Assembly: GCF_900108185.1 (NCBI RefSeq)
Contig: NZ_FNVA01000002.1
Span: 310,001 to 374,000 of the forward strand
DNA from: Bryocella elongata
Lineage (GTDB): Bacteria > Acidobacteriota > Terriglobia > Terriglobales > Acidobacteriaceae
Length of the DNA: 64,000 nt
Direction: 5' to 3'
How positions within the stretch are numbered: position 1 is the stretch's first letter; every line of letters starts with the position of its first letter. The position numbers and the translations under genes were made by a program. The notes under the pieces are model-generated. The model was given only the letters and a program-made list of their open reading frames with translations, was not told where the DNA came from and made no database searches. This document shows positions 6,316-60,081 of the stretch, one piece after another.

Positions 6316-6325
6316 TCAAAGAGAG

Positions 6326-6353
6326 ATGCGAGATACGGGATGCGAGATGCGAG
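6326..6353. repeat. Heptamer array, 4 units, upstream of ppk2
   Basis: Four consecutive 7-bp units (ATGCGAG, ATACGGG, ATGCGAG, ATGCGAG) lie 10 bp 5' of the ppk2 start. The same unit recurs in the 21-copy array at 56336-56482. Confidence 0.8.
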
Positions 6354-6382
6354 GGGAGGTGCGGGCGGATGTCCGGACGCAG

Positions 6383-7853: not shown

Positions 7854-7866
7854 CGAACGAAACATG

Positions 7867-7915
7867 AGAGCTAAGAGCTAAGAGCTGAGAACGGAAAACT
7901 GAGAACGGAAAACGG
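7867..7915. repeat. Heptamer array, 7 units
   Basis: Seven 7-bp purine-rich units (AGAGCTA twice, AGAGCTG, AGAACGG, AAAACTG, AGAACGG, AAAACGG) lie between the terminator at 7821 and the convergent GNAT gene. Sequence drifts along the array while the 7-bp period holds. Confidence 0.75.
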
Positions 7916-7943
7916 AGAAAGTCCAACCCCTCCCACCCTCGCC

Positions 7944-42106: not shown

Positions 42107-42509
42107 GCGAATCGGGGGCGGGGTACCCCCCCCCTCCCCCTGTTTTCTGCAAAATATTCAAACGGCGTGGGTTACGAGGGTACTTGGTGGCATCGAGCGT
42201 CGTCACGCGTCGCATGCGAGACGCGCCTTAGCGGCTCAAGTCGCTATTCGCTGAAGCTTCAAATCTCACGGCAGAAGTCCATCAGCGGTACCAGGATGTC
42301 CGGGACGACCTGCCGTTCGTTGGCTGTTGATGTGTCGGGCCTTCAGCCCTCGGACGTTCTGTAAACCCCAACCTAGGCCTGCGGCCCAGGCTAGTATGTA
42401 TCGGGCCTTTGGCCCTCCTAACGACCTGCTACGAGGTTTCGACAAAGAGCCCTAGATTCATTGTAGAGAGTTGAGACGGGAACTACGCCAAATGGCGTGC
42501 GGAGTGTCG
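42107..42509. repeat. Repeat-rich intergenic region with C-tract and three hairpins
   Basis: About 400 bp. It begins with a C-run (42127-42140) inside GTACCCCCCCCCTCCCCC, then an A-rich stretch. Further on are GGGCCTTCAGCCC (42337-42349), AGGCCTGCGGCCCAGGCCT-like arms near 42374-42392, and GGGCCTTTGGCCC (42403-42415), spaced about 35 bp apart. These resemble dispersed acidobacterial intergenic repeats. No gene is seen. Confidence 0.55.
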
Positions 42510-51522: not shown

Positions 51523-51872
51523 GAGGCGAGGGTTCAGGGGTTAGGGCTCAGGGCCCAGAGTTAAGGGTCAATCAACAGTTTACGGGATTGAAAGAATGAT
51601 TTGCGGTTCCAGGCGCGATTGGGTGGCGGAGCCCGTGAAACCCGGGGCTGAAGCCCCCTTCGTGATCGCCGGCGTTCCGCGGGCTGAAGCCCGCTGCTAC
51701 TCCGCCTCGCGTAGCTGGCAGGCGATCTGGAATCCCACTCGTTGCGAGGATGCCATCACTATCACGGAATGGGGGCTGGGCATTCCCTCTGCGGCTGAAG
51801 CCGCCTTGCAACCGCGTGCTCTTATGGTGGGACTGAAGTCCCGCCCTGACAAAACACATCGAGGGCTCATCC
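51523..51872. repeat. Intergenic region packed with heptamers and four GGCTGAAGCC-type palindromes
   Basis: 350 bp. Heptamers AGGGTTC, AGGGGTT, AGGGCTC, AGGGCCC, AGAGTTA, AGGGTCA fill 51529-51570. Then come palindromes GGGGCTGAAGCCCC (51644-51657), GCGGGCTGAAGCCCGC (51679-51694), GCGGCTGAAGCCGC (51791-51804) and GGGACTGAAGTCCC (51829-51842), in two pairs with centre-to-centre spacing of about 36-38 bp. No gene is seen. Confidence 0.8.
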
Positions 51873-54859: not shown

Positions 54860-55060
54860 AGTGAGTAGAGAACAGTGAGTAGAGAGTAGTGAATAGGGAA
54901 TGCGGCCCGGCGTCAAGGGTGGGTGGGGTTCAGATCCCAGATGCCAGTGGGCCAGATGCCAGTGAAAGAATCTGGTTCGAGTCGTGGGATTCGAGTTGCG
55001 AGTTGCGAGTCCTTCGGGCTACCGCAGCCAGCCAGCGTTCTCACTACTCACTACTCACTG
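54860..55060. repeat. Facing heptamer arrays between allE and allC
   Basis: Plus strand: AGTGAGT, AGAGAAC, AGTGAGT, AGAGAGT, AGTGAAT, AGGGAAT (54860-54901). Middle: TTCGAGT, CGTGGGA, TTCGAGT, TGCGAGT, TGCGAGT (54976-55010). Right: CTCACTA, CTCACTA, CTCACTG (55040-55060), which on the minus strand reads AGTGAGT and forms the last codons and stop of allC. Left and right arrays are inverted relative to each other. Confidence 0.8.
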
Positions 55061-56307
55061 ATCTTGTGCGGATGCAGGTGGATGAGCAGGTTGAGCAGGG
55101 TGGCGAGGGCGGCTTCTACGTCTTCTTCGCGGACGTTCTCGTCGGGGTGATGGCTGAGGCCTCGGGGTGAGCGCACGAAGAGCATCGTCGTGGGCACGTG
55201 GGGCGCGAGGATCATCGAGTCATGGCCTGCGCCGGAGAACATTGGCTCGGCATCGAAGCCGGCTCGCTCGGCGGCGCGGTGGAGGGCGGTGGTGAGGGTG
55301 CGGTCGAGGTTTACGGCCTTCTGCTCGGCCATAGCCTTGGCAGAGACCTTGACGCCGCGATGCGTCGCAGAGGACTCGGCCTTGGTCAGCAGGTGAGCGA
55401 CGGCGGCATGACGCGACTCGTCCTTGGGGTGTCGGACATCGAGCGTGGCATGGACCTTGGCGGGAACGATGTTGGTCGCGCCGGGGTAGGCATCGACGCG
55501 GCCGACGGTGGCGACGAGCTGCTTGTAGTTGGCGGCGTACTGCTCGACTTCTACGATCCACTGGGCGGCGGCTACGAGGGCATCGTGGCGCAGGGCCATG
55601 GGGGTGGTGCCAGCGTGGTTGGCCTGGCCCTCGAAGGTGAGCTCGAAGCGGGACTGGCCGACGATGGCTTCGACGACGGCGAGGGAAGCGTCTTCCTTCT
55701 CGAGGACGGGACCCTGCTCGATGTGAACCTCGATCGCGGCGAAGGTGCTGGGCGCGAGCGGGCAGGTTTCGGGGATTCGGGTTGGATCCAGCCCGAAGCT
55801 GCGGATGGCCTCGGCGACGGAGATGCCCTGCTTGTCTTTGCGATCGAGCATTGCGGCGTCGAGCTTGCCCACGACAGCGAGCGAGGAGAGGAATGGGAAG
55901 CCGAAGCGTGCGCCCTCTTCTTCGGCGAAGGCGATGAGTTCAATGTGGAAGGGAAGGGCCGTGGCGCCGAGCTCCTCGATGGCCGCGAGGCCAAGGAGCA
56001 CGCCGAGCGGGCCGTCGAAGGCACCGGCGTTGGGGACGGTGTCGATGTGCGAGAAGAGGACGAGGGTAGGTGCGTCAGGCTTTCCGGAGCGGCGGACGGC
56101 GCGCAGGTTGCCGGCGTCGTCGGTACGGGATTCGAGCCCGGCCTGACGCATCCACCAGCTGATCAGGGTGTGTGCATCGCTTGTGGCGGGCGAAAGGAAG
56201 AGGCGGGTGGTCTCGCCGGGGATGTCGGTGATGCGGGCCAGCTCGCGGCAACGGGTGATGATCTTAGCGGCGCGGGTGGTGGGGTCGGGGGAGACTGCGT
56301 TCGACAT
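55051..56307 (-). CDS. allC: Allantoate amidohydrolase
   Basis: 418 residues of the M20 amidohydrolase family. It would convert allantoate to ureidoglycine, CO2 and ammonia with two bound metals. Features: LVLFSHIDTVPNAGAFDGPLGVLLGL (His and bridging Asp), IAFAEEEGARFGFPFLSS (EE), EVHIEQGPVLEKE (His), FEGQANHAGTTPM and FSGAGHDSMILA...GLSHHPDENV (final His). Sequence differs clearly from the second M20 gene here (51873), which looks like the ureidoglycolate enzyme. Its final Ser-Glu-stop is encoded by an AGTGAGTAG heptamer unit, and a 21-unit heptamer array begins 29 bp upstream of its ATG. Confidence 0.88.
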   Translation of the reverse strand: MSNAVSPDPTTRAAKIITRCRELARITDIPGETTRLFLSPATSDAHTLISWWMRQAGLESRTDDAGNLRAVRRSGKPDAPTLVLFSHIDTVPNAGAFDGPLGVLLGLAAIEELGATALPFHIELIAFAEEEGARFGFPFLSSLAVVGKLDAAMLDRKDKQGISVAEAIRSFGLDPTRIPETCPLAPSTFAAIEVHIEQGPVLEKEDASLAVVEAIVGQSRFELTFEGQANHAGTTPMALRHDALVAAAQWIVEVEQYAANYKQLVATVGRVDAYPGATNIVPAKVHATLDVRHPKDESRHAAVAHLLTKAESSATHRGVKVSAKAMAEQKAVNLDRTLTTALHRAAERAGFDAEPMFSGAGHDSMILAPHVPTTMLFVRSPRGLSHHPDENVREEDVEAALATLLNLLIHLHPHKISE

Positions 56308-56335
56308 GCAGGGTCGATTGTACGGCGGGGCGGAG

Positions 56336-56482
56336 ATGCTAGATGCTAGATGCTAGATGCGAGATGCTAGATGCTAGATGCGAGATGCGAGATGCGAGAT
56401 GCGAAGAGCGAGAAGCGAGAAGCGAGAAGCGAGAAGCGAGAAGCGAGAAGCTAGAAGCTAGAAGCTAGAAGCTAGAAGCTAG
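56336..56482. repeat. Heptamer array of 21 units
   Basis: Twenty-one exact 7-bp steps with no length change: first ATGCTAG/ATGCGAG units (10, the last ending in GAA), then one GAGCGAG, five AAGCGAG and five AAGCTAG. It ends in AAGCGG. Neighbouring units are identical in blocks, as expected from slippage or unequal exchange. Placed between allC (starts 56307) and uricase (stops 56521). After it, GGGGATGACAACCAGAAAAAC (56497-56517) looks like another dispersed intergenic motif. Confidence 0.95.
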
Positions 56483-56520
56483 AAGCGGTCCCTCTTCGGG
56501 GATGACAACCAGAAAAACAG

Positions 56521-58482: not shown

Positions 58483-60030
58483 TCAATGTGTGTGGAGCGA
58501 GTCTAAAGTGTACTCTCGTCCGCCGGGAGCGAGGGGGAAGGCGGGGTGCTCGCGGTTCTCATAGACCTGTTGCCCGCGCAGCCAGGTGGAGCGGACGACG
58601 CCACGGAGTGTCTCGCCCAGGTAGGGAGAGATTGCGTGGCGATAGTGCAGCCTGTCGGGTGTGAGGCGGAAGGTGGCGTCGGCGTCGAAGGCGACGAGGT
58701 TGGCGTGCTTGCCGGGCTCGATGGAGCCCACCCAGGCGCCGAGGCCGGCGAGTTGTGCGGGCGCGGCGGAGGTCCAGTGGGCGAGCTTCGCCAGGGGGAC
58801 GCCACGAGCGACGCAGTCGGTCCAGAGGACGGAGAGCGCGGTGGAGAGCGATGGGATGCCGCCCCAGGCCTGGTCGAAGCGGCCGTATTCGAGGCCGGGG
58901 GGCGGCTGCGATGGTAGAGAAGCAGGTCCTTCGACTGCGCCCTGCGCGCTGCGCTCAGAATGACGAAGTTGGGGGTCATCGGGAGCCAGGCGCTTCATGT
59001 GCGGCGGGCAGGGGGAGTGGTCGGTCGCGATCATGTCGATGAGGCCGCTCTCGAGCGCGGCCCACAGCTGGTCGCGATTGGCTGCGGAGCGGATGGGCGG
59101 AGCGCACTTGAAGAGCGTGGCGCCGTCGGGGATGTCCTCGGCAGCGCAGTGGAGATAGTGCGGGCAGGTCTCGACGGTGACGGGCAGGCCTTCGAGGCGG
59201 GCGGCCTGCAGCATCGGCAGCGCCTTCGCGGTGGAGAGGTGCACGATGTGCAGGCGAAAGCGGTGCGCGCGGCAGAGGTCGAGCAGCATGGCGATGGCGT
59301 CGAGCTCGGCTTCGTCGGGACGCGAGGCGAGGTAGGTCGAGTACTTGTGCCAATCAGCGCCGGATGCGTTGAGGCGCGCGACGGCGCGGTCGATGGAGGG
59401 TGCGAGTTCGGCGTGCGTCAGCAGCGGAAGGCCGGTCTTCGCGATGTGGGGGATGGCGAGCTCGAGGTTGGCGCGGTCGATCTCGGTGAAGCCGTCGCAG
59501 CCGGGGTAGATGAGGAAGCACTTGTAGCCGGCGACGCCGGCTAGGGCGAGTGGCTCGATCTCGGCCTGGTTGCCGTCGACGGCTCCGCCCCAGAAGGCGA
59601 GGTCGACGAGGCACTGGTTTGGGGAGGCGTTGTTGGTGGTCGGGTGTTGGGTGTTGGGAAGAGCGGAACCGAAGGCTGCTTCGCGCTTGAGGGCCAGCGC
59701 GCGCTCGTCGATGGTCTCGGGGAGGCAGTTCAATGGCATATCAACGAGGGTGGTGAAGCCGCCTGCGGCGGCGGCGCGGGTGGCGGTGGCGAAGCCTTCC
59801 CACTCGGTGCGGCCGGGCTCGTTGATGTGGGTGTGCACGTCGACGAGACCGGGGAGCAGGGCCAGGTTGCCAAGGTCTTCAATGGGAAGTCCGGTCGGCA
59901 GATTCGAGATGCGAGAGTCGAGATGCGAAGCGGGGTGGACGCCGATGATGAGACCATCTTCGATGACGACGGTAGCGTCGATTTCGCCATGCGGTGTGAC
60001 GACGCGACGCGAGCGCAGAGCGTGTACCAT
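58483..60030 (-). CDS. allB: Allantoinase with three in-frame repeat-derived insertions
   Basis: 515 residues, about 60 more than usual. It opens allantoin to allantoate using two metals. Ligands: DVHTHINEPG (HxH), GYKCFLIYPG (carbamylated Lys), LPLLTHAE, LHIVHLST and IATDHSPCPPH (Asp). Extra sequence coincides with repeats in the DNA: SHLDSRISNL near residue 40 (four heptamers, 59902-59929), LPNTQHPTTNN near 130 (four heptamers, 59630-59657) and QLRHSERSAQGAVEGPASLP near 355 (a HSERS-type intergenic repeat, 58921-58969) just before the FDQAWGGI motif. The frame stays open, so the gene is probably functional. Confidence 0.9.
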   Translation of the reverse strand: MVHALRSRRVVTPHGEIDATVVIEDGLIIGVHPASHLDSRISNLPTGLPIEDLGNLALLPGLVDVHTHINEPGRTEWEGFATATRAAAAGGFTTLVDMPLNCLPETIDERALALKREAAFGSALPNTQHPTTNNASPNQCLVDLAFWGGAVDGNQAEIEPLALAGVAGYKCFLIYPGCDGFTEIDRANLELAIPHIAKTGLPLLTHAELAPSIDRAVARLNASGADWHKYSTYLASRPDEAELDAIAMLLDLCRAHRFRLHIVHLSTAKALPMLQAARLEGLPVTVETCPHYLHCAAEDIPDGATLFKCAPPIRSAANRDQLWAALESGLIDMIATDHSPCPPHMKRLAPDDPQLRHSERSAQGAVEGPASLPSQPPPGLEYGRFDQAWGGIPSLSTALSVLWTDCVARGVPLAKLAHWTSAAPAQLAGLGAWVGSIEPGKHANLVAFDADATFRLTPDRLHYRHAISPYLGETLRGVVRSTWLRGQQVYENREHPAFPLAPGGREYTLDSLHTH

Positions 60031-60046
60031 GAAGCTGATTAGAGCA

Positions 60047-60081
60047 AGGGAACAGGGATTAGGGAATAGGGATCAGGAAGA
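60047..60081. repeat. Heptamer array, 5 units, supplying the ribosome site of guaD
   Basis: AGGGAAC, AGGGATT, AGGGAAT, AGGGATC, AGGAAGA. The last unit provides AGGAAG, 5 bases before the guaD ATG. The array lies in the 55-bp gap between divergent allB and guaD. Confidence 0.85.

Follow-up and report, generated by a model that had tools for sequence, protein, structure and literature searches.

Two classes of small repeats lie in frame within an allantoinase and other enzymes of a soil acidobacterium

An allantoinase with three extra segments

The window (the entire stretch of 64,000 nucleotides that we analysed) includes a gene for allantoinase (AllB) at 58483-60030 on the (-) strand. This gene has 515 codons plus a stop codon. 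Its product scores 472 bits against TIGR03178 from NCBIfam, above the cut-off of 358, and the metal-ligand motifs are conserved (H66, H68, K170, H206, H261/H264, and D337), both as expected of this family. The surrounding genes form a purine-degradation cluster (ureidoglycine aminohydrolase, allantoate amidohydrolase, urate oxidase, hydroxyisourate hydrolase, and OHCU decarboxylase), and beside allB is a divergent deaminase gene whose top match in NCBIfam is TadA-like and under the cut-off. Elsewhere in the window, 42372-42416 (+) matches the Acido-Lenti-1 small RNA (Rfam RF01687) above the gathering score. The closest named relatives are Granulicella, with 67-70% protein identity.

The first-pass annotation described three repeats within this gene and stated that all metal ligands were retained despite them. 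We found all three repeats, with its coordinates off by a few bases at most, along with the full set of ligand motifs. Reading along the protein, the first repeat is a heptamer array at 59900..59928 (-) with the words TCGCATC, TCGACTC, and TCGAATC; it encodes SHLDSRISNL (residues 35-44; 59928-59899). The second is a heptamer array at 59629..59659 (-) with CCCAACA-type words, and it encodes LPNTQHPTTNN (residues 124-134; 59661-59629). The third, at 58912..58965 (-), is a REP-like palindrome together with a downstream stretch that is common to some copies, and it encodes RHSERSAQGAVEGPASLP (residues 356-373; 58965-58912). The palindromic element itself is 40 nt (58964-58925, (-)), with the core GTCATTCTGAGCG at 58952-58964.

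Both arrays are imperfect (16/21 period-7 matches each), and array 2 is degenerate; TRF reported array 1 and missed array 2. If the codon order of allB is shuffled, then one such array arises in 0.4% of trials and two arise in 0 of 3000. If synonymous codons are shuffled instead, one array arises in 18% of trials and two in 0.03%, which is a weak control because the peptides themselves are repeat-derived. The words of both arrays are found elsewhere. The array 1 word matches an intergenic array of 164 bp at 56328..56491 (+), with GAGATGC/GAGAAGC words, that lies upstream of the allantoate amidohydrolase gene, and the array 2 word recurs in the gene for an ABC exporter, where it gives the near-identical peptide NPNTQQPTTNN. 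Another intergenic array separates allB from the divergent deaminase gene (60045..60077, (+)). Further heptamer arrays in the window are at 6321-6356, 7857-7921, 51529-51558, 54873-54905, and 55036-55065, and several of the window's arrays are at gene boundaries in the purine-degradation cluster.

Our alignment compared AllB to 21 orthologues (one is split across two contigs), which came from its own genus, family, and class. AllB from the window is longer than its orthologues by 7, 17, and about 25 amino acids exactly at the three segments, which is where the first-pass annotation had placed the extra length. That annotation also reasoned that a 28-bp array would shift the frame and must be offset by flanking bases. 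However, at array 1 the net gain relative to most orthologues is 7 amino acids or 21 bp, which is three heptamer units, so no compensation by flanking bases is required. In two relatives (L011 and L012), the same loop contains a decayed array, with period-7 scores of 13-14 (all others are at most 10) and 4 fewer amino acids. In the tree, these two group with L022, apart from AllB of the window, and the nearest rows to the latter (L013 and L014) are without array 1. Either the same word was gained twice or there was one gain followed by loss, and the support in the tree is too weak to choose. Given this decayed counterpart in a separate clade, array 1 is not unique to the window's species.

The region of array 2 has a net gain of 51 bp (17 amino acids) relative to most orthologues, or of 10 amino acids relative to five relatives in which another short loop, of the GGPNGT type, takes its place. 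The region of the palindrome has a net gain of about 75 bp relative to most orthologues, and the repeat-free version of this loop spans 1 to 13 amino acids in relatives. About 35 of those 75 bp have no recognisable repeat, and the same is true of part of each net gain. Because the loops vary in length among relatives, the repeats entered loops that were already tolerant of length change. As to the exact shorter versions that the first-pass annotation proposed for strains lacking the repeats, the available relatives are at most about 80% identical, their loops are themselves length-variable, and none of them has an exact empty site.

This variability in repeat-free relatives would also fit with ordinary, indel-prone surface loops whose likeness to repeats is a coincidence of low complexity. 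We consider this very improbable, and it is already disfavoured: two period-7 arrays and a palindrome with 35 copies lie in a single gene, codon-order shuffles did not yield two arrays, and the peptide from the palindrome recurs in unrelated proteins.

We also modelled the structure of AllB with AlphaFold, using a 22-row alignment of AllB and proteins from retrieved loci. The mean pLDDT is 89.5, and confidence is low mainly at the C-terminal end and in three blocks (residues 31-50, 121-140, and 351-380). According to Foldseek, the model superimposes on allantoinase from E. coli (8hfd and 3e74) with TM scores of 0.92-0.94 (by target length). When the extra residues are mapped onto the structure, as the first-pass annotation had suggested, the fold of the E. 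coli enzyme is kept in the model and confidence drops mainly at the inserts. The insert loops are probably disordered.

It is unusual for one gene to have three foreign segments, and allB could be a decaying pseudogene, or the repeats could be artefacts of sequencing or assembly. This seems extremely improbable given that all 515 codons are open, with a coding signal on both sides of the palindrome, that the ligands are kept and the predicted fold is confident, and that the purine-degradation neighbourhood is complete. The same pattern is also found in presumably essential genes, such as that for D-Ala ligase, and in many relatives. From the open, coding-like frame and the intact catalytic residues, we predict that this protein is an active allantoinase.

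Copies in the genome and its relatives

Our genome-wide figures are from pattern searches, one full contig (C6, with 698,657 bp and a coding fraction of 84% by a crude gene caller), and sampled stretches. An exact search of the genome gives 35 copies of the palindrome's core, GTCATYCTGAGCG, and 0 of the reversed control. Long copies have the form GTCATYCTGAGCG, then a variable hairpin, then AGTCGAAGRACC, and short copies are 25 bp. We read 30 copies, and about 28 of these are real elements; two matches to the core (L153 and L171) have no right arm and were taken as chance matches in coding sequence. The stem covaries. Across 16 copies, all 9 of the 9 inner pairs have changed on both sides, and 96% of cells are paired, as compared to at most 52% in slid controls; the pyrimidine/purine positions of the outer stem (TYCT/AGRA) co-vary as well. 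The palindrome does not match any family in Rfam at the gathering threshold, and literature searches with its sequence or its peptides gave unrelated primer-type matches or none.

Among the 30 copies that we read, 11 are mid-frame within coding-like ORFs. By profile, the hosts are allantoinase, agmatine deiminase, D-Ala ligase, ATP-dependent DNA ligase, and an M3 peptidase. As read from the sequence, they also include MnmG, the B12-dependent ribonucleotide reductase NrdJ (two copies), an ABC exporter, an ALDH fusion, and a symporter-hydrolase ORF. (The last of these, L144 at C4:217142, is one long ORF whose two parts resemble a sodium symporter and a beta-lactamase-like hydrolase, with the palindrome at their junction.) Three frames are used, giving RHSERS (3 copies), VILSE (4), or, in antisense, LRSAQDD (4); the frames that contain a stop are unused in genes. 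The RHSERS... peptide is common to the M3 peptidase and the ABC exporter, and in the exporter it adjoins NPNTQQPTTNN. Just 39% of the palindromes are within genes, versus the coding fraction of 84%, so there are fewer than expected; this is as expected if most copies in genes get purged.

The heptamer arrays are also a genome-wide class. On C6, with a threshold of 17/21 matches, there are 22 arrays with a period of 7 and 0-1 arrays with periods of 5, 8, 10, 11, or 13. Of the 22, 14 are intergenic and 5 are within genes, so tandem 7-bp units are over-represented and mostly intergenic, as in heptameric simple sequence repeats. At 16/21, there are 42 arrays, and 13 are within ORFs, including the two in the window's allantoinase. 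(We rejected the ORF at 600058-600696 as a host because we judged it to be spurious, and the array in the ORF at 608054-612571 was unconvincing.) In-gene arrays are found in TrpE and RsmI (both identified by profile), with the peptides RVQGSGSRAQ...LNPGP and LNPGPWALNPGP, respectively. MurD has an array at its C-terminus and a short internal palindrome-like stretch (SPSAQDDK). The arrays are frequently inverted pairs that are about 50-160 bp apart, for example in the gene for a probable MnmG. This gene (C7:57814-59928; L161/L176/L337) contains the palindrome and three inverted pairs of arrays, in frame, and the arrays give peptides such as GIREQGLE...LIPNPYSLIP. Overall, two repeat classes that are normally between genes are found in frame inside allantoinase and about a dozen other enzymes, and the window's allantoinase is one of many such cases in its genome.

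The inserts of the window's genome are missing from most of the 23-25 orthologues of MnmG, the ABC exporter, and NrdJ in the same genus. Several of these orthologues have other repeat copies in the identical loops, such as HPERSEGP (L177, L186), VILSERSESKDPEG (L233), AVILSAARSAQSKDPEG (L251), or a further repeat family, SSPTASSSAKVG (L205, L252). Across the genus, repeats have thus landed repeatedly in these loops. A third recurring in-frame peptide, SSPTxSSAKVG, is found in the relatives' MnmG, ABC exporter, and NrdJ (L179, L205, L252) and is probably another repeat family. The palindrome's core is common in most of the family (229 copies in G002, a relative with a complete genome) and nearly absent from the sister family that we sampled. 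The G002 copies are arranged as inverted pairs with a spacing of about 205 bp; we also noticed cassettes, each about 230 bp long and with inverted palindromes at its two ends, which have many copies among the matches listed for the first megabase (L257, L263-L275, L286).

The compensatory changes in the palindrome's stem, and the ability of four-unit G-rich heptamers to form quadruplexes in other bacteria (PMC4692102), raise the alternative that the inserts were selected for a function, either as DNA or RNA hairpins or G-rich arrays that regulate the transcript, or as loops that are useful to the protein. However, copies are found across unrelated proteins, they use three frames and both senses, and most orthologues lack them; the insert loops have low confidence in the model and are probably disordered; and the conservation of the stem is a property of the element family, not of the site in AllB. 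We consider selection for function to be very improbable.

Instead, we propose that the three extra segments of AllB, which are copies of small dispersed repeats, very probably arose by in-frame insertion into surface loops that already existed and tolerated changes in length. The first-pass annotation had described repeat elements invading an active gene: the dispersed repeats in frame are supported by the alignment of orthologues, the copies across the genome, and the structure model, while "active" is a prediction from the sequence. Under our proposal, repeat copies would arrive in genes, and most that land there would be purged. Copies would persist, and slowly decay, where they leave the frame intact and lengthen a surface loop by a polar, flexible peptide. 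The palindrome would behave as does an intragenic REP or a palindromic element of Rickettsia, and the heptamer arrays would act like simple sequence repeats with long units, for which a gain of three units (21 bp) would preserve the frame.

Strand preference

The palindromes are oriented. In all 29 of the cases tested (L143-L172, L327-L346, and C6), the palindrome lies on the locally C-rich strand, whichever the direction of the host gene: GTCATYCTGAGCG is on the C-rich strand for 24/24 palindromes from the window's own genome (20-kb windows) and for 5/5 on C6 (50-kb windows). Relative to their host genes, 7 of the in-gene palindromes are sense and 4 are antisense, so the direction of transcription does not explain the bias. 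Asymmetric heptamer arrays follow the sign of the local skew in 50 of 59 cases (50 versus 9). We used skew as a proxy for the direction of replication, in an assembly of 16 contigs in which the sign of the skew changes more than once within contigs, so a link of repeat orientation to replication is our inference. In G002, the palindromes among the matches listed are inverted pairs, and no replichore polarity could be read from them.

A transposase of the RAYT/Y1 type does not seem to be the driver. PF01797 gives three genes in the window's own genome and 21 matches among four relatives, almost none of them near a palindrome: an exact core is within 1.5 kb for 1 of 24 loci, and one more has a core with a mismatch. 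We saw no evidence of recent movement of the repeats and no target duplication. Tentatively, and with considerable doubt, we suggest that, in this family of Acidobacteriota, the spread of palindromes and heptamer arrays is strand-specific and coupled to replication (for example, via exposed lagging-strand DNA). Such a process would hit both genes and spacers, and across the genus it would have rebuilt the same loops of enzymes time and again, with differing repeats. It would explain both the palindromes on the C-rich strand and the arrays that follow the skew.

Relation to known repeats and implications

CGTC-tagged REPs have an unpaired CGTC end (often TGTC or CCTC), a stem of 8-9 bp with complementary A and T at the first and second positions, and a loop of 4-5 bases; they are mostly head-head dimers, have no dedicated tyrosine transposase, and have intragenic copies in several species, including RPE-4 and RPE-6 of R. 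conorii (Di Nocera et al. 2013, PMC3733652). That study gives five phyla for these repeats, and Acidobacteria is not among them. Our palindrome is similar in that it is a few tens of bases with many copies, mostly intergenic and some in frame; it has an unpaired tag (the base before GTCAT is C in 18/30 copies and T in 12/30); it has a palindromic stem (the outer TYCT/AGRA and a 9-bp inner stem with compensatory changes); and it has no linked transposase. But its first pair is A-C instead of A-T in nearly all copies (the second position, T-A, does pair), and the loop of the long copies contains a second, variable hairpin instead of 4-5 bases, so we regard it as REP-like without assigning it to the CGTC-tagged REPs. 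As to dimers, G002 has inverted pairs with their wide spacing, and copies in the window's own genome are mostly single.

The classic in-frame palindromes are the Rickettsia palindromic elements, which are about 150 bp (Ogata 2000, 2002, as summarized in the review PMC10969869). Compared to that summary, the insertion habit is alike: the inserts are in frame in unrelated housekeeping genes, they are absent from most orthologues (allB, mnmG, nrdJ, and the ABC exporter), and their peptides leave the fold plausible. In contrast, our palindrome is just 25-61 nt, the bacterium that hosts it is free-living in soil and has a large genome, and a second class of repeat, the heptamer arrays, is in the same genes. 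An excess of heptameric repeats is known from bacteria, where they form inverted pairs and favour four units (PMC4692102, PMC4679880). Our arrays resemble those of Xanthomonas, Nostoc, Calothrix, and Beggiatoaceae in having 7-bp units, often about four of them, and G-rich words, and in being mostly intergenic with inverted pairs common. They differ in that the window's genome has many different words and in that they are also in frame in core enzymes, beside a REP-like palindrome. Our literature search, which mostly covered open-access papers, found no description of either repeat class for Granulicella, or of such in-frame repeats for its phylum.

Until now, Rickettsia and some Proteobacteria have been the best-known cases of small repeats inserted in frame. 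These results add free-living Acidobacteriota from soil, where two unrelated repeat classes occupy the same host genes, including presumably essential ones. They also call for caution in annotation: peptides such as RHSERS..., VILSEA..., and LIPNPYPLIP are translations of repeats. Some 28 genomes from this genus, with different repeats in the same loops, are a natural experiment on the tolerance of proteins for random in-frame peptides, and the strand lock of the palindrome is a testable handle on how repeats without a transposase spread.
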